A stretch of 46,039 bases of DNA from a virus. A model generated the notes under the pieces. It did not search any database, was not told the origin of the DNA, and saw only the letters and a program-made list of their open reading frames with translations. This document shows positions 3,529-46,039 of the stretch, one piece after another. Numbering within the stretch: the stretch's first letter is position 1; every line of letters begins with the position of its first letter. The position numbers and the translations under genes are program-made. The stretch lies in the IMG/VR virus record IMGVR_UViG_3300020171_000051, positions 1 to 46,039 of that record; one strand, 5' to 3'.

Positions 3529-5376
3529 ATGTCTGAAAAATACCAATTAAGGAAAGAAGTCTCTGGCTGGGTTACAAATCAGGAAAGCACATCTGACAAA
3601 GCTCTCCCTCATATGGTTTCAGGTTCACAAAACATTCTAATTGACCCTCGTTTTGGAAAGTTTAGTTCAAGAGGTGGATATTCACGACTTGGAGCAGGAA
3701 ACACAGCTTTAACACCGATTAGACAAGAGTTTAGATGGATAACTTCAACTGGAGAGGAGAGAGATTTAAGATGGTATGATGACGAATTAGAGGCATATTT
3801 AGGCACAATAGATGGAGTAGCAGTAAATGCTTGGACAAGAATTAAAAATAGTTTAAGCACTACAGCAATTCCGAGACGATGCACTTATTGGGATACTACA
3901 GAATTGATTGACCTTTTACTTTTTGTTCAAGGAGATGATAATATTTATGATTGGAGTGGAGCTATTACGACATTAGCTTCAGCAACTGTCAACACTTTGA
4001 CTAAAAATGGAATAGCAACTTGGGCAAATTCAAGATTTTTAACGGCAGGAACGCGAAAAGTTTTAATCAATGGCACAGAATATACTTATACAGGGGGAGA
4101 AACTACCACAACTTTAACAGGAGTTACGGGAGACCCTTCGGCAGAAGCGGTAAATAGTGTGGTTAGTCAAGTGGTGAGAACAAACGCCAATACTCCTTTA
4201 GCTGATAGAAATAACCATACGATATTTAACATTGAAAATCATATATTAGTAGGTTCAGACGAAGACGCTTTAGTTTATGTGTCAAAAAGCACTTCCTTTA
4301 CTGATTTTACTTATTCTTCACCAAGAGTTCCGACGGAAGGCGCCTTGCTTAAATTAACAGGCGCAACAAAAGGATTTGGCATAGTGAGTAAAATACCCAT
4401 TATATTTGGAGGCAAAAATGAAGTATTTACAATGGAATTTGAGCAATTGGCTGTGGGTGCGGTTTTAACTGAAACTTTAAAAATCAAGAAGCTAAAAACA
4501 GGCATAAATCAAGGAGCTTTTAATCAAGAAACAATAGTGCCAGTAGGTGATGGATTGATTTATTTAACAAATGAACCCACTTTAAGAATAATTGAAACTG
4601 TAGCAGGAGCAGACCAGCCACAAATACGAGCATTATCTAATCCAATTAAGCCAGACTTTGACGCTGAGACCTGGACGAATGCTTGTGCAATTTGGCATAA
4701 GAATAGATATTATCTTTCTGCCCCAGCAAATTCAAAACTTTACATATTAGAATACCAAGAAGATGCTGATGGAACTTTAAAAAGATTTTGGCAACCTCCA
4801 CAAATACTACCAGTTAGGTGTTTGACTATAATTTCTGATGCCTTATATGGACATTCAAATGCAGTTCCAGAAACCTATCTCCTATTTACAGGAAATGCTG
4901 ATGGAGTTTATACTGACATTGCAGTAGCAGATAAACTTCCAATAGAAGCAATAGCTAAACTTTCGTATAGAACTTATGGTGATAGGGCTAATTTAAAATC
5001 ACACGATGAGTTTTATGTGGAAGGAAATATCTCACCTGCGACAAATGATTTACAGCTGGTTTTAAGATACGACTACGGAGGAGCCACACAAGAGTCAACT
5101 TTTATAATAGACGGCACAAATCAAGACATTTTATATCAAACAATAGAAGAGACATCATTAGGACAGCAACCTTTAGGAACACATCCGATTGGAGGGGTGG
5201 TTCAAGAACCAACAGCACTTTCAAGGTTTAGAGTAATCTTTGAAATGCCAAAAGAAGACTATCACGAATTACAAGAAATTTATCAGAGTAATGGAGTTGA
5301 TAAATCTTGGGAAATAATTTCTGCTGGTGGTTCAGTTAAATTAAGTCCAAATCGGGACACTTTAATTCATTTATAA
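3529..5376 (+). CDS. Tail nozzle/hub-like protein
   Basis: The protein has 615 residues. It has repeated beta segments, including an arginine-glycine-rich N-terminus (FGKFSSRGGYSRLG), a central GFGIVSKIPIIFGGKNEVFTM stretch and an IWHKNRYYLSAPANSKLYIL segment. This combination resembles the beta-propeller nozzle (tail tubular B-like) proteins of short-tailed phages. It follows the adaptor-like gene, as expected for a podovirus tail. The start is the ATG at 3529 after an A-rich leader with no Shine-Dalgarno. A different structural role is possible. Confidence 0.55.
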   Translation: MSEKYQLRKEVSGWVTNQESTSDKALPHMVSGSQNILIDPRFGKFSSRGGYSRLGAGNTALTPIRQEFRWITSTGEERDLRWYDDELEAYLGTIDGVAVNAWTRIKNSLSTTAIPRRCTYWDTTELIDLLLFVQGDDNIYDWSGAITTLASATVNTLTKNGIATWANSRFLTAGTRKVLINGTEYTYTGGETTTTLTGVTGDPSAEAVNSVVSQVVRTNANTPLADRNNHTIFNIENHILVGSDEDALVYVSKSTSFTDFTYSSPRVPTEGALLKLTGATKGFGIVSKIPIIFGGKNEVFTMEFEQLAVGAVLTETLKIKKLKTGINQGAFNQETIVPVGDGLIYLTNEPTLRIIETVAGADQPQIRALSNPIKPDFDAETWTNACAIWHKNRYYLSAPANSKLYILEYQEDADGTLKRFWQPPQILPVRCLTIISDALYGHSNAVPETYLLFTGNADGVYTDIAVADKLPIEAIAKLSYRTYGDRANLKSHDEFYVEGNISPATNDLQLVLRYDYGGATQESTFIIDGTNQDILYQTIEETSLGQQPLGTHPIGGVVQEPTALSRFRVIFEMPKEDYHELQEIYQSNGVDKSWEIISAGGSVKLSPNRDTLIHL

Positions 5377-18465: not shown

Positions 18466-18777
18466 ATGTTTAACTGGTTTAGATTTAGATTAGGCGGAAG
18501 AAGTGGAAGTTGGGGGAAAGTCCGAAAAGAATTTTTACGCAACAACCCAATCTGTGCAGTTTGTGGAACAAGAGGAAGTTTATTAAAACCTAATGAGGCG
18601 CATCATTTAAAAGATTTTTCAACTTATCCAGAATTAGAATTAGAAAAATCAAACCTTCGCACACTTTGCAGACCTCATCACCTTTTATTTGGGCACTTAA
18701 TGTATTTTAAATCTATAAATCCTAATTGTTTAAAAGACATAAAATTATGGAAAATCAAAATACAAAACAGAAGATAA
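18466..18777 (+). CDS. Small HNH endonuclease
   Basis: The product has 103 residues. It shows the HNH core: CAVCG, then EAHHLKDFSTYPELELEKSNLRTLC, then RPHH. It lacks the extra zinc modules of the other HNH proteins here. Its 3' end overlaps the start of the protease gene by 31 bases. It may be a homing nuclease or, as in some phages, a packaging-linked HNH; its distance from the terminase favours homing. Confidence 0.85.
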   Translation: MFNWFRFRLGGRSGSWGKVRKEFLRNNPICAVCGTRGSLLKPNEAHHLKDFSTYPELELEKSNLRTLCRPHHLLFGHLMYFKSINPNCLKDIKLWKIKIQNRR

Positions 18778-19549: not shown

Positions 19550-20086
19550 ATGAACAAAATCTGCCTTCACCACAGCGCAGTTTCAAGAGACGATGTTTCA
19601 TCTCAACTCCTTCCTATAAATAAATATCACAAAGACAAGTGGGGAATGAAATCCAAACTTGGTTTTTTTGTTGGCTATAATTTTTTGGTTGATTGTAACG
19701 GCATTGGCTACAATACTCGTCAGATAGGTGAAGAAACAGTAGCGGCAACTGGTTATAACTTTGACACTATACATATTTGTGTTGTAGGAAACTTCAGCAA
19801 GGAACTACCAAACGACTCACAAATCATTACTTTAAGACAACTTATAAAGGACATTAGAGCTTCTTTCAAGGACATTCCAATTGTCTTTCATAGAGATATA
19901 GGAGATACAATGTGTCCTGGGTCTCTTTTTGATAAGAATTATCTAAATACAGTTATTCTACAAAGTCAATACTCTACTTCTACTCAAGACGGCGAAAAAG
20001 AACGAAAAATAAAAGAAATCGCTAAACAAATTTCATACTTAGAAAAATTGGTCTTTGAGATAAAAAGAAAGTTAGGAATTAGTTGA
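19550..20086 (+). CDS. N-acetylmuramoyl-L-alanine amidase (endolysin)
   Basis: The protein has 178 residues. The amidase_2/PGRP pattern is clear: LHHSA at residues 6-10 gives the first zinc His; GYNFLVDCNG, HICVVGNF and VFHRDIGDTMCPG (about 111-123) give the other zinc ligands and the C-P-G end. It cleaves the amide bond between muramic acid and the peptide stem. A helical tail of about 40 residues (ending LEKLVFEIKRKLGIS) may bind a partner. There is no signal peptide, so it needs the holin for release. It is followed by a strong hairpin. Confidence 0.9.
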   Translation: MNKICLHHSAVSRDDVSSQLLPINKYHKDKWGMKSKLGFFVGYNFLVDCNGIGYNTRQIGEETVAATGYNFDTIHICVVGNFSKELPNDSQIITLRQLIKDIRASFKDIPIVFHRDIGDTMCPGSLFDKNYLNTVILQSQYSTSTQDGEKERKIKEIAKQISYLEKLVFEIKRKLGIS

Positions 20087-20090
20087 GAAC

Positions 20091-20148
20091 GGGAGAGGAA
20101 CAAAAACACACACCTACAAATAAAACTTCGGTTTTAAGTTCCTCTCTC
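20091..20148 (+). terminator. Nested hairpin with UUCG tetraloop after amidase gene
   Basis: An outer stem GAGAGGAAC/GTTCCTCTC (9 bp or more) encloses an inner TAAAAC-TTCG-GTTTTA hairpin with the very stable C(UUCG)G loop. It lies right after the amidase stop and before a gene cassette of different style. It may end transcription, although the U-run after it is broken (TCTTTCTG). Confidence 0.55.
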
Positions 20149-20159
20149 TTTCTGAAATT

Positions 20160-20190
20160 GTTCTTTAATAGTTCTTTAAAGTTCTTTAAC
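20160..20190 (+). repeat. Three tandem GTTCTTTAA repeats before phosphoesterase gene
   Basis: GTTCTTTAA occurs three times in a row at 10-11 base spacing, about one helical turn, ending 19 bases before the next start codon. This arrangement suits a cooperative protein-binding site or promoter element. No TATAAT-type -10 is seen here. Confidence 0.5.
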
Positions 20191-20974: not shown

Positions 20975-21139
20975 ATGAAATGGGAAGAGCAATTTAAATG
21001 TCCTGATTGTGATAAACAAGTTTCCATTAGAAACGGAAAGTTTAATTGGGACGGTAAAGTTTATATCTATACTTGCAAGTGTGGATATAAATATATCTTA
21101 AACATCAAAACAAAACGGAGGTTGCAATGGAAAGAATAA
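20975..21139 (+). CDS. Mini zinc-ribbon protein 1
   Basis: The product has 54 residues and two knuckles, CPDC (residues 9-12) and CKCG, which give a four-Cys zinc ribbon. The start has a perfect AGGAGG placed 6 bases upstream. It overlaps the next gene by 13 bases. It could bind nucleic acid or a host protein; no family is recognised. Confidence 0.75.
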   Translation: MKWEEQFKCPDCDKQVSIRNGKFNWDGKVYIYTCKCGYKYILNIKTKRRLQWKE

Positions 21140-21282
21140 GAGCAAGATGCGGTCATTGTTGCGGAACTCACCAAATGGAAATACTCCTAAAAGTGGAGTA
21201 TAAATACCATATAACATATAGAGTTCGTTGCTCTAATTGTTATCGGGTAAGTATAGTCCGCAAAAAGCGAGGTGAGAAATGA
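21127..21282 (+). CDS. Mini zinc-ribbon protein 2
   Basis: The product has 51 residues, with CGHCCG near the N-terminus and CSNC near residue 36. The start has CGGAGG 6 bases upstream, inside the previous gene. The stop overlaps the next start (ATGA). The basic tail (VRKKRGEK) fits nucleic-acid binding. Confidence 0.7.
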   Translation: MERIRARCGHCCGTHQMEILLKVEYKYHITYRVRCSNCYRVSIVRKKRGEK

Positions 21283-21464
21283 ACCTAATTTCTCAAGAAG
21301 TGTCTTGTGAAGATTGCGGAGCAGGACTGGTGATTGTTGAATTGCATATGGATTTAACTAATTGCCTGTATGCGATAGAATGCGAATGTCTCTTATGTGG
21401 AAAAGTATCAGGCATAATCCTATCGTTAGAGGACTTTATTGACCTCAATCGGAATGTTCTTTAA
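21279..21464 (+). CDS. Mini zinc-ribbon protein 3
   Basis: The product has 61 residues, with knuckles CEDCG (residues 9-13) and CECLLCG. It is acidic, unlike the previous one. The ATGA overlap with the gene upstream shows coupled translation, preceded by GAGGTGAGAA, a good Shine-Dalgarno. It is the last gene of the Shine-Dalgarno-type cassette. Confidence 0.7.
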   Translation: MNLISQEVSCEDCGAGLVIVELHMDLTNCLYAIECECLLCGKVSGIILSLEDFIDLNRNVL

Positions 21465-21490
21465 TATCGGGGGTTTATTCACACATTATG

Positions 21491-21518
21491 TTGACATAGA
21501 CCCCCATTTGTTTATAAT
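21491..21518 (+). promoter_or_regulatory. Sigma70-type promoter, leaderless arrangement
   Basis: TTGACA, a 16-base spacer, then TATAAT: both hexamers are perfect. The next ATG (21525) lies six bases after the -10 box, so the transcript would begin at or next to the start codon. The promoter would also transcribe the structured RNA block that follows. Confidence 0.8.
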
Positions 21519-21524
21519 AAAGAT

Positions 21525-21674
21525 ATGAGAAAAAAACTACCCGATATAATTTTATATTGTCCTAAATGTAAAAAAGTTCCACAAAAAGATGAAAGTTTAT
21601 CAAATGAGAATTGGGATGTGATACCAGCAAAATGTCCAATTTGTAAAGTTCGTCTAAAAATAAAAGTAAAATAA
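21525..21674 (+). CDS. Mini zinc-ribbon protein 4, leaderless
   Basis: The product has 49 residues, with CPKCKK at 12-17 and CPICK at 37-41: a basic four-Cys zinc ribbon. It has no room for a ribosome binding site, as the perfect promoter ends six bases before the ATG. It is the only gene between that promoter and the 21.68-22.22 kb RNA block. Confidence 0.7.
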   Translation: MRKKLPDIILYCPKCKKVPQKDESLSNENWDVIPAKCPICKVRLKIKVK

Positions 21675-21679
21675 TGTAT

Positions 21680-21750
21680 TTCCTATCTCAATTCGTAAGG
21701 ATTGAGTTTTAGCCAGAAATCTTAACTCCATTAGGAGTTGAGATAGGGAA
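21680..21750 (+). ncRNA. Structured RNA A, two alternative folds
   Basis: An outer stem of about 12 bp, TTCCTATCTCAA with TTGAGATAGGGAA (one bulge), closes the element. Two local hairpins compete with it: CTCAAT/ATTGAG (21687-21706) and AACTCC-ATTA-GGAGTT (21724-21739). Both reuse bases of the outer stem, so the two folds cannot co-exist fully, as in attenuators and riboswitches. No coding frame covers it. Confidence 0.6.
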
Positions 21751-21760
21751 TATAGTTATT

Positions 21761-21888
21761 TTAATTCAGGAAGTGTAGGGCTAAAGCTCTGTCGCGGTCA
21801 AGTGATTCACGGATATTTTAGCTTATTCTTTTTTAACTTATTCTTAGGATTAAGCGTCCAGCAAAACTGCAAACACTTCTTGAATTAA
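21761..21888 (+). ncRNA. Structured RNA B with 16-bp terminal stem
   Basis: TTAATTCAGGAAGTGT pairs with ACACTTCTTGAATTAA over 16 bp with a single G-U pair, closing a 96-base interior. Inside, GGCTAAA can pair with TTTAGCT, and a CTTATTCTT unit is repeated. An AGTTATTT leader starts seven bases before the stem, as it does at elements C and D. It has no similarity to tRNA (no 7-bp acceptor, no CCA). The function is unknown. Confidence 0.65.
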
Positions 21889-21990
21889 GGTAGTTATTTA
21901 ATATGTGATGATGCCGAAAAAACTGGAGCAGATAACTGGCCTCTACTCCCAAAACATAGCCAGAAGGTCATCACATATTAGATAATTACT
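21889..21990 (+). ncRNA. Structured RNA C with 23-bp stem and possible pseudoknot
   Basis: The two ends pair without interruption over 23 bp, with a few G-U pairs; the inner 11 bp (ATATGTGATGA/TCATCACATAT) are perfect. The 56-base interior can form interleaved stems: GGAG (21925-21928) with CTCC (21946-21949), and CTGGC (21936-21940) with GCCAG (21959-21963), the order of an H-type pseudoknot. It abuts element B directly. Confidence 0.65.
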
Positions 21991-22028
21991 TGACAATTAC
22001 TTGACAATTAAGCACAAATTAGTTGACA
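21990..22028 (+). repeat. Triple TTGACAA repeat between RNA elements C and D
   Basis: TTGACAA occurs three times (21990, 22001, 22023), the first two as exact TTGACAATTA copies. They look like -35 boxes, but none has a -10 box at the right distance. They could be a regulator site controlling element D or remnants of duplicated promoters. Confidence 0.45.
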
Positions 22029-22035
22029 ATAGTTA

Positions 22036-22224
22036 TTTAAATGTAGGGGTTCTTATCAAGGCGTTGATGACCAGACCTCTAATATCTCTTTAACGGATAA
22101 GCGTGAGATATTAGTTGTAGATAACAACACGGGTCGCAAGAGTCAGTTTCTGGTATAGTCCGTGAATATCACCAAACGGCTAATTACCTAAGGGGTATTT
22201 AAAATCTTGCCCCCTACATTTAGA
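22036..22224 (+). ncRNA. Structured RNA D, 189 bases, 14-bp terminal stem
   Basis: AAATGTAGGGG pairs with CCCCTACATTT, extended to 14 bp by flanking pairs. Inside are a perfect 10-bp stem CTAATATCTC/GAGATATTAG (22079-22114) and a small ATCAA-GGCG-TTGAT hairpin (22053-22066). The interior also has a TATAGTCCG run, but I could not build a group I core from it. It lies between the zinc-ribbon genes and the next coding gene, with no reading frame. Confidence 0.65.
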
Positions 22225-22276
22225 GAATTATGATAAAAAAATGTATTGTTTCACCAATCGTGCGAATTAGATAAAA

Positions 22277-22594
22277 ATGAAAATTGAAACCCGCGCAGAA
22301 TTAGTAAAAAAACTTTTAGGAGAAGCACAAAAAATTGCTTATGATAAAGGCAAGGCATATTCAGACGAAGACACTTTGTCTAATTTTAAGCGGAATGCTG
22401 AAAGGTGGAATTTAACTAAATATCAAGTGTGGGGAGTTTATTTTGGCAAACACATAGATTGCATACAGAACGCCATAAAAAACAAGCCTGAAGCACCACA
22501 AGACGAAACGGAAGGTCTTAAAGGGCGTATCATAGACGCAATAAACTATTTATGTATTTTGCATTGTTTATTGGAAGAGGATAACTTGAAATAA
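22277..22594 (+). CDS. Nmad1/DUF1599-like phage protein
   Basis: The product has 105 residues. KGKAYSDEDTLSNFKRNAE, then VWGVYFGKHIDCIQNAIKN, then TEGLKGRIIDAINYLCIL, follows the pattern of small helical phage proteins that I associate with the DUF1599 (nucleotide modification associated 1) group. Helices and conserved acidic residues suggest a MazG-like nucleotide-handling fold. I am fairly sure of the pattern and less sure of the role. Its 3' end overlaps a promoter for the holin. Confidence 0.55.
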   Translation: MKIETRAELVKKLLGEAQKIAYDKGKAYSDEDTLSNFKRNAERWNLTKYQVWGVYFGKHIDCIQNAIKNKPEAPQDETEGLKGRIIDAINYLCILHCLLEEDNLK

Positions 22595-22653: not shown

Positions 22654-22842
22654 ATGATTTCACAAGAATATATAGCGGCGATTGCTTTAATCTTAATAAG
22701 TGTCCTTAAGGTTTTTGGTATAGAAATAGAAAATCAAACCATTGAAGCACTTATCGCAGGAGTATTGGCTCTTTGGATAGCAATAAGACGAAAATCCAAA
22801 GGAGACATTACGGCACTGGGCTTTAGAAAGTTTAGAAGCTAA
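22654..22842 (+). CDS. Phage holin
   Basis: The product has 62 residues, with two hydrophobic helices (about 6-22 and 32-44) separated by a short acidic turn (IEIENQ) and a basic tail (RRKSKGD... RKFRS). Size, layout and position just before a signal-peptide-bearing wall hydrolase fit a class II-type holin, which opens the inner membrane for lysis. It has its own promoter upstream. Confidence 0.7.
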   Translation: MISQEYIAAIALILISVLKVFGIEIENQTIEALIAGVLALWIAIRRKSKGDITALGFRKFRS

Positions 22843-23204: not shown

Positions 23205-23248
23205 CAAAATCCCCCGTTTTTATTCGGGGGAATTTTGTTTTTATTTTT
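23205..23248. terminator. Bidirectional rho-independent terminator
   Basis: CAAAATCCCCCG and CGGGGGAATTTTG form a strong stem (one bulge) around TTTTTATT, followed by a T-run on the top strand; an A-run before it gives the U-run on the other strand. It separates the rightward lysis genes from the leftward methyltransferase. The 120 bases between it and that gene hold nothing I recognise. Confidence 0.9.
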
Positions 23249-25773: not shown

Positions 25774-26391
25774 ATGATAAAAAAAGATATATTAGGACGA
25801 AAGATACCAATAAGAACACAAGAGTGGAAAGACAATATAGCAAAAGGAAATACCAGAGGAAGATTTGATGTATGTAAGTGTGGTAAAAAGTTTTGGGTTT
25901 ATCCTCATAGAGAAAAAAAGGCAAAATATTGTTCTAAAAAATGTTGGGGTAAATATGGAAGTTTTGGTTTTACAAAAGGGATGAAGATACCGAAAGGTTC
26001 ATTGTCCAAAATGGGTGATAAAAATCCAATGAGAATACACGGAATTAAACCAGAACATTTACAAGCATTACATAAAGGAGCAAAAAAATATCAAGATAGT
26101 ATAAGAGTTTCAAAAGAACACAAGCGAATTGTAAAAAGGTTATGTGAGTTAGTTAGAAATAATACAAAACGAGGTAATGGTGGAAGTTTTACAAAAAATG
26201 AGTGGGAAGAAATTAAAAAGAAACAAGAATATAAGTGTTTACATTGTAAAAAACAAGAACCTGAAATCAAATTAACAGTTGACCACATAATACCGATTTC
26301 AAAAGGTGGAACAAGTTTTAAAGAAAATTTACAAGGTTTATGTAGAAAATGTAATGCTAAAAAAGGAACAAAATATGAAAACATACAATGA
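25774..26391 (+). CDS. HNH homing endonuclease splitting the RecB-like gene
   Basis: The protein has 205 residues. The C-terminal HNH core is complete: CLHCKK, VDHIIPISKGG near residue 170, ENLQGLCRKCNAKKGT. An N-terminal Cys zinc module (CKCGKKF...YCSKKC) resembles those of the HNH protein at 655. The gene separates the two halves of a RecB/Cas4-like nuclease; its last 17 bases overlap the ATG of the second half. There is no space for a group I intron core, so this looks like a free-standing homing gene that split its target. Confidence 0.9.
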   Translation: MIKKDILGRKIPIRTQEWKDNIAKGNTRGRFDVCKCGKKFWVYPHREKKAKYCSKKCWGKYGSFGFTKGMKIPKGSLSKMGDKNPMRIHGIKPEHLQALHKGAKKYQDSIRVSKEHKRIVKRLCELVRNNTKRGNGGSFTKNEWEEIKKKQEYKCLHCKKQEPEIKLTVDHIIPISKGGTSFKENLQGLCRKCNAKKGTKYENIQ

Positions 26392-33441: not shown

Positions 33442-33563
33442 TGAACGAAATCGTGAATATAAGAAAAATAATTGTAGGCAACATCTCCAAGATGATTTTG
33501 GTTCTCACGAGCCAGTTCAGTCGTCTTGGAGATTTTGCTTGTAAAAAATATGGAGAAATTTAA
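33441..33563 (+). CDS. Possible leader peptide before initiator gene
   Basis: The frame encodes 40 residues (NEIVNIRKIIVGNISKMILV...), hydrophobic in the middle, ending 14 bases inside the initiator gene. A hairpin of about 15 bp lies inside it, so its translation could change access to the initiator start. It is supported only by position and the weak promoter. Confidence 0.3.
   Translation: MNEIVNIRKIIVGNISKMILVLTSQFSRLGDFACKKYGEI
33483..33543 (+). promoter_or_regulatory. Hairpin before replication gene start
   Basis: ATCTCCAAGATGA pairs with TCGTCTTGGAGAT over 13 bp plus two more pairs, with a smaller TGG/CCA stem inside. It ends seven bases before the initiator ATG, so it could control translation, or be part of the origin. 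Confidence 0.55.
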
Positions 33564-35597: not shown

Positions 35598-37199
35598 ATG
35601 GAACAAGAACAAATGATTATCCTAACAGGATACGAAGCCAGAGTAAAGTTAATGGCTGGAATAGAAAAAGCTGCTAAAATTATAAACTCCACGCTGGGGC
35701 CTGGAGGGAAGAATGTTATTTATGAGTCAGAGTACAACAGGCGAGTAAATGTAGCTGATGATATGTATGATAGTCAAGCTCCAACAATTACAAATGATGG
35801 GGTAAAAGTTGCTTCAAAGGTAATTTTTGAAGACCCCATTGAAGATTTGGGGGCACAAGCATTATTTGAGGTCTCAAAACAGCAAAACATAGAAGCAGGA
35901 GACGCTACCACCACAGTAGTAACGATTGCTCACAAACTAATTCAGTTGATAATGAATAAACTAAATGAGGGAGGTGAATTAGATGTTGAGACTATAAATA
36001 GAATGGAGCTTAAAAGGGAACTAAACAAAGCCAAAGACGAGGTGATTGCCGAACTTAAAAAGAAAGCCAAACCAATTAAGACCCTACAAGAACTTGAAAA
36101 TATAGCAATGACAGCGGGAGAGAACGAGTTTATTGATAAAAAAATAGCGGAAGCGTGGTGGAAAGTAGGAAAAGATGGTTGGGTTGGAGTTGAAGGACAC
36201 AAAGGACTTGAGACAGAAATTGAAGTTCACGAAGGTATGAGATTTCACGCCAAGTTAATGAGTGAGTATATGAGAACCAATGCAAAAGGTGAAATGGAAG
36301 TAAAAGAACCCCTCGTTATTGTAACTAATCACGATATAGATAATTCAGAACAAATAAAAGGATGGATACAAAAAGCGACACAAAAAATAAAATTTGACAT
36401 AGTTTTATTTGCCCCAAAGTTTTCAGCCAAAGCGACAGATTTTATAAATACAGCAAGAATGAAAGTGGAACAATTCAATGTAGCAAACAAAAATAAAGGA
36501 GTAAAAGCGGTAAGATTATTTGCAGTTAAAATTCCTTCATTAACCGAAAAGGAAGGGGGACAAGTGGAAGACCTTGCAATTTTTACAGGAGCAAAGTTTA
36601 TAGACAAACACAAATCAATGAGTATGGAAGATTCTAATGTTGATTATTTCGGATATGCTACAAAAGTATTCTGTGATAATGACATAGCAATCGTAGCCAG
36701 TGATAATGGAGATGTAAAAAAGAGAATAAAGGATTTAACAATTCAAATGAACTCCGAAAAAGACGACACATTTAAAAATCGCCTAAAAAATAGAATAGCA
36801 TCACTATCATCAGGCATAGCTATAGTAAAGGTAGGAGCAACAACTGATACTGAGAGAAGATATATCAAACTTAAAACAGACGATGCGGTTCATTCTTGTG
36901 GAAATGCACTGCAAGATGGATATATTACTGGAGCGGGACAGGTTCTTAAAAAACTACCTTGTAAAAATGAATATCTTAAAAAGGCGTTAGAGTCACCTTA
37001 TAATCAGATACAAACAAATGCAGGAAATATAGATATACCAAAGTGGGTAATAGACCCAGTAAAATCAATGATACTTGCGATAGAAAGAGCTGTAAGTATG
37101 GCATCAATGATTATCACCATTGATACTTGTGTGGCTTATAAGAGGGATAATGATTTAAGTAAAAAGTTTGATGAGATATTAAAAGTATTAAAGAAATAA
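35598..37199 (+). CDS. groEL-like: GroEL-type chaperonin, phage-encoded
   Basis: The protein has 533 residues, near the usual 540. Family marks in order: LGPGGKNV (32-39), ITNDGVKVA, DLGAQA, GDATTTVV (near 101, catalytic Asp kept), the apical domain, SSGIAIVKVGATTDTE (near 405), the ATPase Asp in KTDDAVHS (near 424), and VIDPVKSMILAIERAVSMASMII (near 484). The GGM tail is missing. No GroES gene is seen nearby. Phage chaperonins fold virion proteins, often without a co-chaperonin; the terminase and capsid genes follow directly. Confidence 0.92.
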   Translation: MEQEQMIILTGYEARVKLMAGIEKAAKIINSTLGPGGKNVIYESEYNRRVNVADDMYDSQAPTITNDGVKVASKVIFEDPIEDLGAQALFEVSKQQNIEAGDATTTVVTIAHKLIQLIMNKLNEGGELDVETINRMELKRELNKAKDEVIAELKKKAKPIKTLQELENIAMTAGENEFIDKKIAEAWWKVGKDGWVGVEGHKGLETEIEVHEGMRFHAKLMSEYMRTNAKGEMEVKEPLVIVTNHDIDNSEQIKGWIQKATQKIKFDIVLFAPKFSAKATDFINTARMKVEQFNVANKNKGVKAVRLFAVKIPSLTEKEGGQVEDLAIFTGAKFIDKHKSMSMEDSNVDYFGYATKVFCDNDIAIVASDNGDVKKRIKDLTIQMNSEKDDTFKNRLKNRIASLSSGIAIVKVGATTDTERRYIKLKTDDAVHSCGNALQDGYITGAGQVLKKLPCKNEYLKKALESPYNQIQTNAGNIDIPKWVIDPVKSMILAIERAVSMASMIITIDTCVAYKRDNDLSKKFDEILKVLKK

Positions 37200-41266: not shown

Positions 41267-41559
41267 TGAATAAATTTGTAGATAATCTTATAGATGAAAC
41301 ACAATTTCTTACATTCAACAAGAATGAGGTTTTTATTCGTGGCAAGAAGTTAGATAAAGACCAAATCAATGAATTAAAGGACTCCGCAAAGGCATTTTAC
41401 AACTCACCTATTTGGAGGATGTTAGTTCAAGAAGTTAGAAATGAATCAGTTATGGCACTTTATAAAGCCAATCCAAATGTGCCTACTGAATCAATAGCAG
41501 GTCAAACAATGTTATTAAACCTTGAGATAATGGAAAAATTACTCAAGAAATTAACCTAA
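41266..41559 (+). CDS. Small helical protein before scaffold
   Basis: The product has 97 residues, helical (DQINELKDSAKAFYNSPIWRMLVQEVRNESVMALYKA). It lies in the capsid operon between portal and scaffold, translated with the previous gene (TAATG). It may be an assembly factor. The function is unknown. Confidence 0.5.
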   Translation: MNKFVDNLIDETQFLTFNKNEVFIRGKKLDKDQINELKDSAKAFYNSPIWRMLVQEVRNESVMALYKANPNVPTESIAGQTMLLNLEIMEKLLKKLT

Positions 41560-41571
41560 TGGGTTTAATAT

Positions 41572-41659
41572 GAGGGTCTTAGCTTCGGCTGTGTTCCAAG
41601 ACCCTCACACTAAGTCCATTAGGACAGGTTGGGTAAGCCTTAATTACCATTAAGAACCC
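41572..41659 (+). promoter_or_regulatory. Structured mRNA leader before scaffold gene
   Basis: The 125-base gap holds hairpins in a row: GAGGGTCTT/AAGACCCTC (9 bp) around an AGC-TTCG-GCT mini-stem with a UUCG loop; GTCC-ATTA-GGAC; and CTTAAT-TACC-ATTAAG, with GGGT/ACCC around it. No promoter is seen. It may set the scaffold-to-portal ratio by RNA processing or translation control. Confidence 0.55.
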
Positions 41660-42380: not shown

Positions 42381-42911
42381 ATGGCAGTTCAAAAAGTATT
42401 TAAGGTTGTAGAAGACCCTGGATGCGCCATTATTGCAAGAGTTGAAGACAGGACAACATCTTCAATGACTGCAGCAATAGCAAAAGGAGAACCTCTAAAG
42501 ACAAGAACAGTGCAGAATAGTGCAGCAACAGACTTGATTCCAGTAGGAGATGGAGACCCTGAAATAGCAGTCGACGATTTTATTGGAATTGCAAATAGTG
42601 CTTCAACAGAAGCCGCAGCAACAACTGAGGGCGTAGTTGAGGTTATTCTTTGCAAAGGTTCAACATTCATAAGAGGAAAAGCTACAACATTCGCAAATAT
42701 AGACACACAAGCAGAAATTGATGTGTTGTTATTTGCGTGGGTGACTTTTGATGTCACTGCATTAACGAATACAAATGGAGACTTCACGGTTGATGAAAAC
42801 GAAACATTAGACAGCAATGTTAATGGACTCCAAATTATGAGAGGCGACCCAGTATTAGGAACTTTAGATGTTAGAGTTCATTCACTAATTTTGGACGCTT
42901 ATGTTGCTTAA
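42381..42911 (+). CDS. Head decoration/stabilising-like protein
   Basis: The product has 176 residues, beta-rich and Thr/Ala-rich, with FIGIANSASTEAAATTEGVVEVILCKGSTFIRGKA, the alternating pattern of small head decoration (gpD-like) proteins. It lies between scaffold and coat genes, as expected. The start ATG is in an AAAGATATG context. Confidence 0.6.
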   Translation: MAVQKVFKVVEDPGCAIIARVEDRTTSSMTAAIAKGEPLKTRTVQNSAATDLIPVGDGDPEIAVDDFIGIANSASTEAAATTEGVVEVILCKGSTFIRGKATTFANIDTQAEIDVLLFAWVTFDVTALTNTNGDFTVDENETLDSNVNGLQIMRGDPVLGTLDVRVHSLILDAYVA

Positions 42912-42930
42912 TAGATAACCTTATAAAATT

Positions 42931-44717
42931 ATGAAATTAGATGCACAAGTCGTCTCTTAATTCGTAGCGACTTTTTAGTGGAAACACTAATTGACAAATC
43001 TTGCCTAATCAATGGGGAAAACCCTGAGAAGGACAACCCTCAAGAACCCGAAAGGGACTTGCAGAGACTGAGTGGTGAGACTCCTAACAGATAATGCTGA
43101 GGAAGAAGCGACAGTCCGAACTACACATATAATCTAAAAACGAAAGTGTAGAGATAAGTAGAAATGACTTATCCATTAGAACCTTGAAAATTACATAGCA
43201 ATAGAGTATAATATCATAGATGGTATTTTATAGAGGAAACAAAGAAAGACTTGGGACAAAACACAAACAAGAGACAATCAATAAAATGAGGAGGTCTGAT
43301 GTGTGGTCTAATATAGATGAAGCCAAGAGATTATATTTAGAAGGTAAAACTTGTAGAGAAATTGGTGAAATCTTAAAAATCAATCATATTACACTTGGAA
43401 AGGGATTGAAACGAATTGGTGTTAAAATGAGAATGTCTAAACCACGAAAAGGAAATATCGCTTGGAATAAAGGAAAGAGATATTTAGCAATTACTGGAGA
43501 TAAAAACCCTAACTGGAAAGGAGGTATTTCAGGAATCAGAGATGAAATCAGACATTGTTTAGAATATAAACAATGGAGAAAGGAAGTCTTTGAACGAGAT
43601 AATTATACTTGTAAAAAATGTAATAAAAGAGGTGGAGAATTAGAAATCCACCACAATATAAAAACATTTTCTGAGATTTTAATATCAAATAATATAAAAT
43701 CAACGGAAGATGCAATACTATGTAATGAGTTTTGGAATATAGATAACGGGATAACTCTTTGTCTAAATTGCCACAATAAAACAAAAGGTAATAATAGTAA
43801 CAAAATGACGAACAGAGCTTGATGAGGTTCTCTTTGAGGAATATGAAAGGGAGTCAGCTCCAGGCGAAATTCTCGCAACTGATGGTTTGTTCGTAAAGCA
43901 AAAGGATATATCAAAAGGGTATGTAATATACGCTGAAAATATGGGTCCTGGCGCTTTTGAAAAACACGTTCAGGAGCAAAATGTAAAAGAGTCAACTACA
44001 AAAGTTGGCAATAAAGTAACGAAGGAAATAGAAAACTGGAAGAACTCTTTGCCCGTGGCGATTGAGTCTTACGAAGATGACCAGCACGATGTTATCCAAG
44101 ATAATGTTCGTGAGATGGGAATTAACGCAAGAATCACAAGGGATAAAGATGTAATTCAGACATTGTATGGTGATGGATTTGACGAGACAACGACACCTGA
44201 CGGTGTTTATACTTGGTCAAACTCACACTTAAATCTAAATGGGGACACAATAGATAATCTGGAAACAGGAACACTAACTCCAGCAAACCTTGAAACACTT
44301 GTTAAGTCATTAAGACTGCAAAAGAAACAAGATGGTTTGTTAGGTGGACACAATCCAGCAGGATTGGCAGTCCCAGTAGCATTATTCCCTGACGCGCAGG
44401 AAATAACAAAATCAGAATTAGCAGCTCACACAGGTGAAAATCAACTTAACTACTTCTCGGCAATTTATCCAGGATTAGTAGTTGGCTCATCTGGTTTTCT
44501 TGACAGCACCTTTAACGACTACACCAATGCTAATACTTCACATTATTTGGTATCAAGAAATCACAAACTTACAAGAACAGTAAGATTAGGATTGACCACA
44601 GAATTGATACCTTATCAATTTGACCAAAAAGACAGATGGTTTTACAAGGCACGATATAGAGAGGTGCCTTCAGCTAAAGGTTGGCAGGGAGCAGTAGCTT
44701 CTTCTGGAACAGTCTAA
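42931..44717 (+). CDS. Major capsid protein, interrupted by a group I intron
   Basis: Exon 1 is 42931-42953 (23 bases) and exon 2 is 43811-44717; joined they give 309 residues in one frame, starting MKLDAQVVTELDEVLFEEYE. Without splicing the frame stops soon after exon 1 (TCTTAA). The body (YTWSNSHLN, LAVPVALFPDAQEI, FYKARYREVP) fits an HK97-fold coat protein of Mu gpT-like style. Exon 2 alone is open back to 43809. The C-terminal 208 residues match the left window end. It forms the capsid shell. Confidence 0.88.
42954..43810 (+). mobile_element. Group I intron with HNH gene in the capsid gene
   Basis: P1: exon end AAGTCGT pairs with GCGACTT, with the splice-site U-G pair in the right place. 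P2: TTAGTG-GAAA-CACTAA. A GGGG-AAAA-CCC stem then GACAACCC and the core GCAGAGACTG follow; P7 pairs GACTG (43066) with CAGTC (43112). Stems CTACAC/GTGTAG and GATAAGT/ACTTATC come after. The intron ends in G (43810). Length is 857 bases. Splicing here restores the coat frame. P10 pairing is not clear. Confidence 0.88.
43184..43212 (+). promoter_or_regulatory. Sigma70-type promoter inside intron, leaderless HNH gene
   Basis: TTGAAA, 17 bases, TATAAT, ending seven bases before the HNH ATG. The same hexamers and spacing occur before the holin (22586). The HNH gene may thus be made from its own transcript, apart from the capsid mRNA. Confidence 0.7.
43220..43822 (+). CDS. Intron-encoded HNH homing endonuclease
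   Basis: The protein has 200 residues. An N-terminal helix-turn-helix-like segment (KRLYLEGKTCREIGEILKINHITLGKGLKRIG), a NPNWKGG motif as in NUMOD-type DNA-binding modules, and a C-terminal HNH core (CKKCNKRGGELEIHHN, then NGITLCLNCHNKTKG) are all present. Its last 12 bases run into exon 2. It would cut intronless capsid genes to spread the intron. It has its own promoter. Confidence 0.9.
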   Translation: MVFYRGNKERLGTKHKQETINKMRRSDVWSNIDEAKRLYLEGKTCREIGEILKINHITLGKGLKRIGVKMRMSKPRKGNIAWNKGKRYLAITGDKNPNWKGGISGIRDEIRHCLEYKQWRKEVFERDNYTCKKCNKRGGELEIHHNIKTFSEILISNNIKSTEDAILCNEFWNIDNGITLCLNCHNKTKGNNSNKMTNRA

Positions 44718-44733
44718 TTATTACTAACCAACT

Positions 44734-45411
44734 ATGACTATGAAAGAAACAATTAAATTAGTCGCTATAGTTCTCATTGCAGGACTTATTGGTGGTTTCG
44801 TAGGCGGTCTGGTTGGTAATCAATCAGACTACTTAGGAAGTGGCACACGCTTTCCCAGTGGGTTAAGTGCAGACGGCACTTCACCTATTGCGGGAGAAGT
44901 TAGAGGAACTACTCTAACGATTACAGGAGCACAAACTCTTACAGGGGCAACAACTCTTTCAAGCACCCTTACAGCAAATGGATTAGCTACATTTAATGCG
45001 GGGTATTATCACAGTTATACTAATTCAACATCTACAACGGCAACGACTCAAACTCTTGTAGCTGCAGATATCTTGAATTACACAAGTATAATTTTGACAC
45101 CTAATGTTGGAGCATTAACACTCACATTTCCAGCTTCTTCTACTCTATCGGCAATGGTGCCAGTAGCAGGAGATAGTTTTAAGCAATGTTGGTATAACGC
45201 TACAACAACCGCAGCAGTAACAATTACATTTGCAGCAGGAACAGGTATTGATTTTCAGAGAGCAGCAACTACAACTACGGATGGTGGAGCTACAACAGCA
45301 TTTCCTATTGACGAACAAGGTTATGCTTGTCTAACATACTTTAGACAACCAGCAACATCTTCAACATTTGATATTGGTGTTCTTATGACAGGATATCTAA
45401 ATGCGGATTAG
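44734..45411 (+). CDS. Variable virion-type protein, second version
   Basis: The product has 225 residues. A hydrophobic N-terminus (LVAIVLIAGLIGGFVGGLVG) is followed by the same VGNQS-YLG-GTRFPSG-SAD-SP block as in the protein at 1215, then a diverged body and a longer C-terminus with GTGIDFQRAATTTTDGGATTAF. Neighbouring genes are almost identical between copies, so this gene changes faster. Start at ATG 44734, with a second ATG at 44740. Confidence 0.6.
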   Translation: MTMKETIKLVAIVLIAGLIGGFVGGLVGNQSDYLGSGTRFPSGLSADGTSPIAGEVRGTTLTITGAQTLTGATTLSSTLTANGLATFNAGYYHSYTNSTSTTATTQTLVAADILNYTSIILTPNVGALTLTFPASSTLSAMVPVAGDSFKQCWYNATTTAAVTITFAAGTGIDFQRAATTTTDGGATTAFPIDEQGYACLTYFRQPATSSTFDIGVLMTGYLNAD

Positions 45412-45455
45412 TTCATCCATTCAACTTCTCAATTTGGGAAGTTGAGTTGGGTGAG
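45412..45455 (+). promoter_or_regulatory. Conserved intergenic RNA hairpin (right copy)
   Basis: Outer stem TTCATCCA/TGGGTGAG and an 11-bp inner stem TTCAACTTCTC/GGGAAGTTGAG around AATTT, with the same bulged T as at 1854. Inner pairs have changed together between the copies (T-A to A-T, T-A to C-G), so the fold is under selection. Confidence 0.8.
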
Positions 45456-45484
45456 CTAAAATTAAAAGTTAACAATTAACGATT

Positions 45485-45871
45485 ATGAACAAAATTATTG
45501 GAATAGGAATAGTGGTAATAGGACTTATTGTCTTATTGACTACTGGAACTATGCAACTTGGTGGAGTGGTTCAAAATACGCCAACATATTCTGATGTGGC
45601 CACAAGTGGAATTATATCATTTACAAGTTCTACTCAGATATTGGCAACAACATCAAGAAGGGCTTATGCTGTAATATGCAACACGACAGCAACGAATGCC
45701 GCTTATTTAAGTTTTAGAGCAGATGCAGTGCCAGCTAACGGACTATTAGATTTTGAACTTGGAACTGGTGAATGTTATGAAATTGACAATGACAACCTTT
45801 ATGTAGGAGCTGTTAGAGCAACATCATCAACAGGCACAATAAATTTAACAGTAACAGAATTTAAAGATTAA
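45485..45871 (+). CDS. Small virion-type protein with N-terminal membrane segment, second version
   Basis: The product has 128 residues, the same length and N-terminal hydrophobic segment as the protein at 1932, with about six changes (Asn to Asp in YSDV, Met to Ile and Ile to Phe in the next segment, Ser to Ala, and two near EIDNDN). The TAATG overlap with the adaptor gene is kept. Confidence 0.65.
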   Translation: MNKIIGIGIVVIGLIVLLTTGTMQLGGVVQNTPTYSDVATSGIISFTSSTQILATTSRRAYAVICNTTATNAAYLSFRADAVPANGLLDFELGTGECYEIDNDNLYVGAVRATSSTGTINLTVTEFKD

Positions 45872-46039
45872 TGACCACTCAAAACCTAAAGCAAGAACTT
45901 ACGGGAATGTTGCACGGAAGCACTCTTAATAAAGTGCGAAACTTTTACGATTTATGTAAAAGGGCTTCTGGCAATGTTTTACTAAAGATAGACCCCGCAG
46001 AAACGAGGAGAATTGCCAATCTTACAAACGCAATACACG
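45871..46039 (+). CDS. Head-tail adaptor-like protein, N-terminal part (cut by window end)
   Basis: The first 56 codons match the protein at 2318 (TTQNLKQELTGMLHGSTLNKV against TIQNLKAEISGMLHGSTLNKV), with the changes limited to the first residues. The rest is outside the window, or is the left copy if the unit is circular. Confidence 0.8.
   Translation, partial: MTTQNLKQELTGMLHGSTLNKVRNFYDLCKRASGNVLLKIDPAETRRIANLTNAIH

Follow-up and report, generated by a model that had tools for sequence, protein, structure and literature searches.

We analysed a 46,039-nt stretch of DNA from an uncultivated bacteriophage (IMG/VR record IMGVR_UViG_3300020171_000051; hereafter the window) and found four consecutive elements, A to D, at 21675-22231, each closed by a stem of 16-24 bp (Table 1). 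Such stems are not expected by chance, their wobble pairs indicate selection on a rightward RNA, and elements built in the same way, but around unrelated cores, are found in related phages. The reading that we favour, with a probability that we put at about even, is that one polycistronic transcript carries the four as an array of separate noncoding RNAs, with the closing helices as handles for excision/processing or protection.

Long-stem elements of the block

No open reading frame (ORF) of at least 40 aa overlaps 21680-22224 in any frame on either strand. A first-pass annotation, made from the letters alone, had described this stretch as gene-free and as holding four adjacent structured RNAs with long closing stems, and both descriptions were borne out: the stems are beyond chance and their wobble pairs are strand-asymmetric. 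The 801 nt at 21500-22300 fold at -213.9 kcal/mol compared to -158.4 +/- 7.7 in dinucleotide shuffles (z -7.2). Stem scores within the block were 43, 39 and 36. Of 500 random sequences of block composition, only 0.6% contained a stem that scored as high as 36, and the score of D was seldom attained even once by such sequences. In a stem scan of the whole window, C, A and D were within the five strongest long-core stems.

The four elements are unlike one another. Element A is a near rod-like hairpin, and its stem, previously given as 12 bp, is in fact longer, at 24 positions. The stem of element B, read from the sequence, has the same 16 bp as annotated earlier. A possible H-type pseudoknot was read by eye in the core of element C (21925-21928 with 21946-21949, and 21936-21940 with 21959-21963). 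Compared with shuffles, the core of D has a z of about -2 and that of B a z of -1.0, and several cores from relatives also fold better than their shuffles. Besides the 11-bp repeat of the spacer between C and D, the only other tandem repeat in the repeat search was a 15-bp unit present twice.

The motif AGTTATTT has exactly three plus-strand copies in the whole window, one at the 5' edge of each of B, C and D (P about 8e-6), and it is extended to TAGTTATTTAA in C and D. The earlier observation that B, C and D begin with a common motif was therefore correct, and so was the spacing of the copies in steps of 138 and 139 bases. The equality of the steps, however, looks coincidental: a longer B (about 134 nt) directly adjoins C, while a spacer of about 40-47 nt comes after the shorter C (about 100 nt). 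The accompanying proposal that one unit had been duplicated and had diverged did not hold up. The sequence common to A-D is limited to a boundary motif of 8-11 nt, TAGTTATTT(A)A, beyond which the cores have no sequence similarity, and local alignments of A-D with one another and with about 50 other elements were no better than shuffles. At the level of sequence the elements have a common boundary, and descent from a duplicated unit is not shown.

Wobble asymmetry in the closing stems

If folding were selected in DNA, G.T and A.C mismatches should be about equally frequent, whereas selection on RNA from one strand would tolerate only G.U on that strand. Our stem search scored G.T and A.C mismatches equally, and both were then counted. 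The closing stems of A-D contained nine G.U and no A.C; the combined count for A, C, D and two further window elements, at 20074 and 33472, was 14 G.U to 0 A.C. Among 27 noncoding elements of the phage group with clear gene direction, 68 G.U and 23 A.C were found on the sense strand (p 2.5e-6), or 19 vs 2 when counted per element (p 2e-4). The G.U:A.C ratio of stems within coding sequence was 99:132, and short-loop hairpins had no consistent bias. This asymmetry is the strongest evidence on the nature of the block, and it points to a function as rightward RNA rather than as DNA. Together with the stems themselves, it indicates a long closing helix selected as RNA, one of the features expected of an excised noncoding RNA with a processing stem.

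A hairpin present in both contig ends (1845-1935 and 45403-45488) has kept its lower stem, and in its upper stem TT/AA has become AC/GT, which amounts to two compensatory pairs. The two copies show that such stems are under selection in this phage population, but do not show it for the block itself.

Relatives and genomic setting

The relatives found in IMG/VR are distant, with at most 71% identity in terminase and at most 54% in a peptidase-like protein. An exact IMG/VR search with part of element C returned zero matches, and a search of annotated phages with the DNA of the region gave only weak, short matches. Terminase relatives in genome collections were metagenome bins, including a Candidatus Nomurabacteria bin, and a host from the candidate phyla radiation (CPR) is possible on this basis. 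Noncoding gaps of the phage group contained 25 long-core stems in 48 kb, where the coding-sequence rate would give 4.9 (p 1e-10), and the arms of these stems were mostly 19-29 nt long. The control phages lambda, A118, LP.2 and HTVC026P each had between zero and two long stems, in which G.U was not in excess. Head-to-tail arrays were found in relatives as well, with three elements at about 13159-13550 of L053 (the locus at about 5510-5900 of L070) and two at 562-786 of L063. No alignment-detectable core was common to any two phages and, apart from tRNAs in L108, the long-stem elements of the relatives had no Rfam match. A candidate family, suggested by GACnAGACCT...CTnGTATAGTC in D and in one element of the L053/L070 array, was rejected, as the alignment was not significant and an IMG/VR motif scan returned only that same phage. 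A conserved position beside lysis genes (in the window, G014, G025 and MW202497) was suggestive, but gave a permutation p of 0.18.

L108, which was reached through a relative of window gene 22873, has a tRNA-His within a long stem, found by both ARAGORN and Rfam. This shows that a functional RNA can form the core of a long-stem element, although part of the L108 stem may be chance; the other two tRNAs of L108 are without such a long stem. The stretch at 4050-4290 holds the tRNA-His in a long extended acceptor-side stem and, just 5' of it, a three-hairpin module in a 15-bp closing stem. In L063, the long-stem core at 562-671 contains a perfect tRNA T-arm (GTAGG-TTCGACT-CCTAC) without a full cloverleaf and adjoins a second element at 680-786. 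Mimicry of tRNA was considered and rejected, as this one perfect T-arm compares with 0.5 expected by chance and T-arm-like motifs are no commoner than background. In L069 (14310-14596), a minus-strand tRNA-Trp gene is directly abutted by a long, strongly folding inverted-repeat stretch at the contig end, which may be an attachment site.

The block is flanked by a 49-aa zinc-ribbon-like ORF (21525-21674), which sits between the promoter-like site and element A, and by a 105-aa ORF that starts 46 nt after the end of D. The promoter-like site matches the consensus at all 12 positions, in agreement with the perfect promoter annotated upstream of the block. With this promoter upstream and the first terminator-like hairpin only at 23210, one transcript would cover both the block and the lysis-region genes downstream. 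The 49-aa ORF is the fourth of four successive tiny ORFs (49-61 aa) at 20975-21674, which are cysteine-pair-rich and zinc-ribbon-like by weak Pfam matches. Its ATG lies 7 nt past the -10 box, so that from this promoter it would be either leaderless or untranslated.

Table 1. Positions of the block elements and of surrounding features in the window
Feature	Position	Strand	Details
Sigma-70-type promoter-like site	21491-21518	+	TTGACA-16-TATAAT, 12/12; predicted by consensus scan
Element A	21675-21754	+	closing stem 21675-21698/21731-21754; 20 Watson-Crick (WC) + 3 G.U of 24, 0 A.C; 32-nt core
Element B	21761-21888	+	closing stem 21761-21776/21873-21888; 16 bp incl. 1 G.U; branched 96-nt core
Element C	21888-21991	+	closing stem 21888-21911/21968-21991; 21 WC + 3 G.U of 24, 0 A.C; 56-nt core
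C-D spacer	21984-22030	+	11-bp repeats AATTACTTGAC, 2.5 copies, plus related third copy
Element D	22029-22231	+	closing stem 22029-22049/22211-22231; 18 WC + 2 G.U of 21, 0 A.C; branched 161-nt core
Boundary motif AGTTATTT	21754-21761, 21892-21899, 22031-22038	+	
105-aa ORF directly after D	22277-22594	+	phrog_6802 (unknown function)
Holin-like 62-aa protein, downstream	22654-22842	+	weak phrog holin matches; orthologues in relatives
First terminator-like hairpin 3' of block	23210-23231	+	
Long-stem noncoding element of the same kind, after amidase gene	20074-20165	+	3 G.U, 0 A.C
Long-stem element at 5' end of DnaD-like gene	33472-33544	+	3 G.U, 0 A.C

Elsewhere in the window, a long intercistronic hairpin at 41555-41623 folds better on the minus strand and, with 2 G.U and 2 A.C, has no wobble bias, unlike the other window elements. 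A phage-encoded GroEL-like chaperonin (Cpn60_TCP1, E 4e-24) is found at 35598-37199, and groEL is also present in the annotated spring-water phage MW202497. The four HNH or HNH-like genes (655-1218, 18466-18777, 25774-26391 and 43220-43822) are probably homing endonucleases. The last of these follows a strongly folding 309-nt gap beside the major capsid gene (gap and ORF together at 42911-43822); by eye this gap resembles a group I intron core, and Rfam gave no intron match to it. The contig ends are diverged overlapping copies (1-645 vs 44090-44734, 97%; 1845-2486 vs 45403-46039, 92%), and the HNH gene at 655-1218 is present in the left copy only. The genome is probably circularly permuted, about 44 kb long and assembled from two strains.

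Possible functions and comparison with known RNA systems

RNase III-type enzymes need about two helical turns. In the array reading that we favour, rightward transcription, for which the promoter at 21491 is the probable start, would take in the block and the adjacent lysis-region genes, and each module would fold independently as a variable core within its closing helix. Because the helices span about the two turns required, we infer that the closing helix may serve as a handle at which a host enzyme of the RNase III type would cut to release the module from the transcript, as happens in the processing stems of pre-rRNA. It may in addition, or instead, shield the module from exonucleases, so that the core would persist as a stable small RNA. 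More speculatively, the cores might act in trans on host factors, and their low conservation would then fit fast-changing targets. No RNase III of the phages' own was found in the nine phages searched, and there were no defence-system proteins beside the block. Several results weigh against this reading. The wobble test on A-D alone is small (9:0, p 0.004), and no close relative was found in the collections searched. The cores exceed chance in structure only modestly, with a mean z of -0.88 in 20 noncoding elements vs -0.29 in 55 coding controls (p 0.056), and the core of element C has a z of about 0 without its pseudoknot. Finally, coding sequence has equal-scoring stems at a rate of 0.14 per kb, which means that chance must account for some of the relatives' elements. 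A bolder version, which we consider unlikely, is that these are cassette-like arrays of fast-changing RNA modules, perhaps in CPR-infecting phages, in which only the two-turn helix is common and acts as a generic excision handle for interchangeable trans-acting cores, which might for instance decoy the RNA-sensing defences of the host. Such arrays would be the RNA equivalent of clusters of anti-defence genes.

The main rival, a possible though doubtful one, is that the stems are mere devices of mRNA processing or stability, either intercistronic RNase III sites like those of T7 early RNA or a retroregulator such as lambda sib, and that the cores are passive. All window elements are intercistronic with arms mostly of 19-29 nt, cores are not conserved between phages, and A and the elements at 20074 and 33472 are almost plain hairpins, as this explanation would have it. 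Four elements in a row nevertheless exceed the need for processing, the cores of B and D are large and branched, those of D and several relatives fold better than shuffles, and in L108 a tRNA forms the core of one element; the core-structure statistics lean the same way, but only at p 0.056. It is improbable that A-D make up one long structured 5' leader for the cis regulation of ORF 22277 and the holin genes, by attenuation or translational control: D does end 46 nt before that ORF with no terminator between the block and the lysis genes, but there was no Rfam riboswitch or leader match, no alternative terminator hairpin was seen, and in relatives (L049/L064, L052/L069) the elements come after the holin, not before it.

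The block could also be a product of chance, or a relic left by small RNA genes or mobile repeats that have decayed and no longer have a function. The rate of equal-scoring coding-region stems (about 0.14 per kb) means that some of the relatives' elements are chance, and the isolated perfect T-arm of L063 would suit it. For the block it is improbable, since the block itself is beyond chance, decay would not preserve long stems that depart from pairing only by G.U, and T-arm-like motifs do not exceed background. Least probable is a DNA element, either a replication origin or a site of recombination, composed of inverted repeats together with the iteron-like 11-bp direct repeats between C and D; stems with G.U but no A.C are not favoured by DNA folding, the GC skew does not turn at the block, and the repeats are confined to one spacer.

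Rfam 15 (including GOLLD, ROOL, group I introns and riboswitches) had no window match at gathering score, and ARAGORN found no tRNA or tmRNA in the window. The covariance-model check that the first-pass annotation had called for thus matched no family, and its view that the block is not a tRNA, group I intron or known riboswitch stands. In a permissive Rfam search the best weak matches were plant microRNA models, far below gathering and meaningless. Among the systems considered and rejected, a group I intron in the block was without Rfam support, and a retron was dismissed as the record has no RVT_1 (reverse transcriptase) match. TIGR-Tas was set aside because no Nop-domain (PF01798) match was found in nine records and no tandem repeat array was present beyond the 15-bp x2 and 11-bp x2.5 repeats. 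Type III toxin-antitoxin RNA was rejected, as near-identical tandem repeats are not present and the elements are unlike.

Phages could deploy several small RNAs from one transcript if the modules are set free as stable RNAs. The block would then exemplify a recognisable architecture, a two-turn closing helix around a variable core, that sequence-based RNA family searches miss for want of conserved cores. A simple genomic signature usable at scale would be long-core stems in noncoding gaps whose exceptions on the transcribed strand are G.U but not A.C.

RNase III processing stems, such as pre-rRNA closing stems, T7 intercistronic sites and lambda sib, similarly have a long closing helix that encloses or adjoins a functional RNA within a polycistronic transcript; here there are several consecutive modules with large branched cores, and cleavage is only inferred. 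Two further systems can be compared. Type III toxin-antitoxin (ToxI-like) arrays are likewise tandem structured RNA units, and element C may hold a pseudoknot, but the block units are not mutual repeats and no endoribonuclease toxin was recognised beside the block. The phi29 packaging RNA is a phage structured RNA of comparable size, but the window has an ordinary large terminase and four unlike modules without Rfam match. GOLLD and ROOL RNAs are much larger than the block modules. They too are structured RNAs that have no coding role, and some are carried by phages (PMC12286853), but they are single RNAs of conserved sequence with Rfam models, in contrast to four small unlike modules that match none. 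TIGR-Tas arrays, known from phages and parasitic bacteria (PMC12045711), resemble the block as phage RNA arrays, possibly also in having a parasitic (CPR) host; the block has neither a short direct-repeat array nor a Nop-domain protein. Phage small RNAs have been reviewed (PMC12197685), and arrays such as this one are not described in the titles and abstracts of the open literature, a coverage that mostly excludes subscription journals. In kind, the block is a phage-borne structured noncoding RNA locus; what sets it apart is a row of unlike modules that have a similar closing helix and no conservation of the core.
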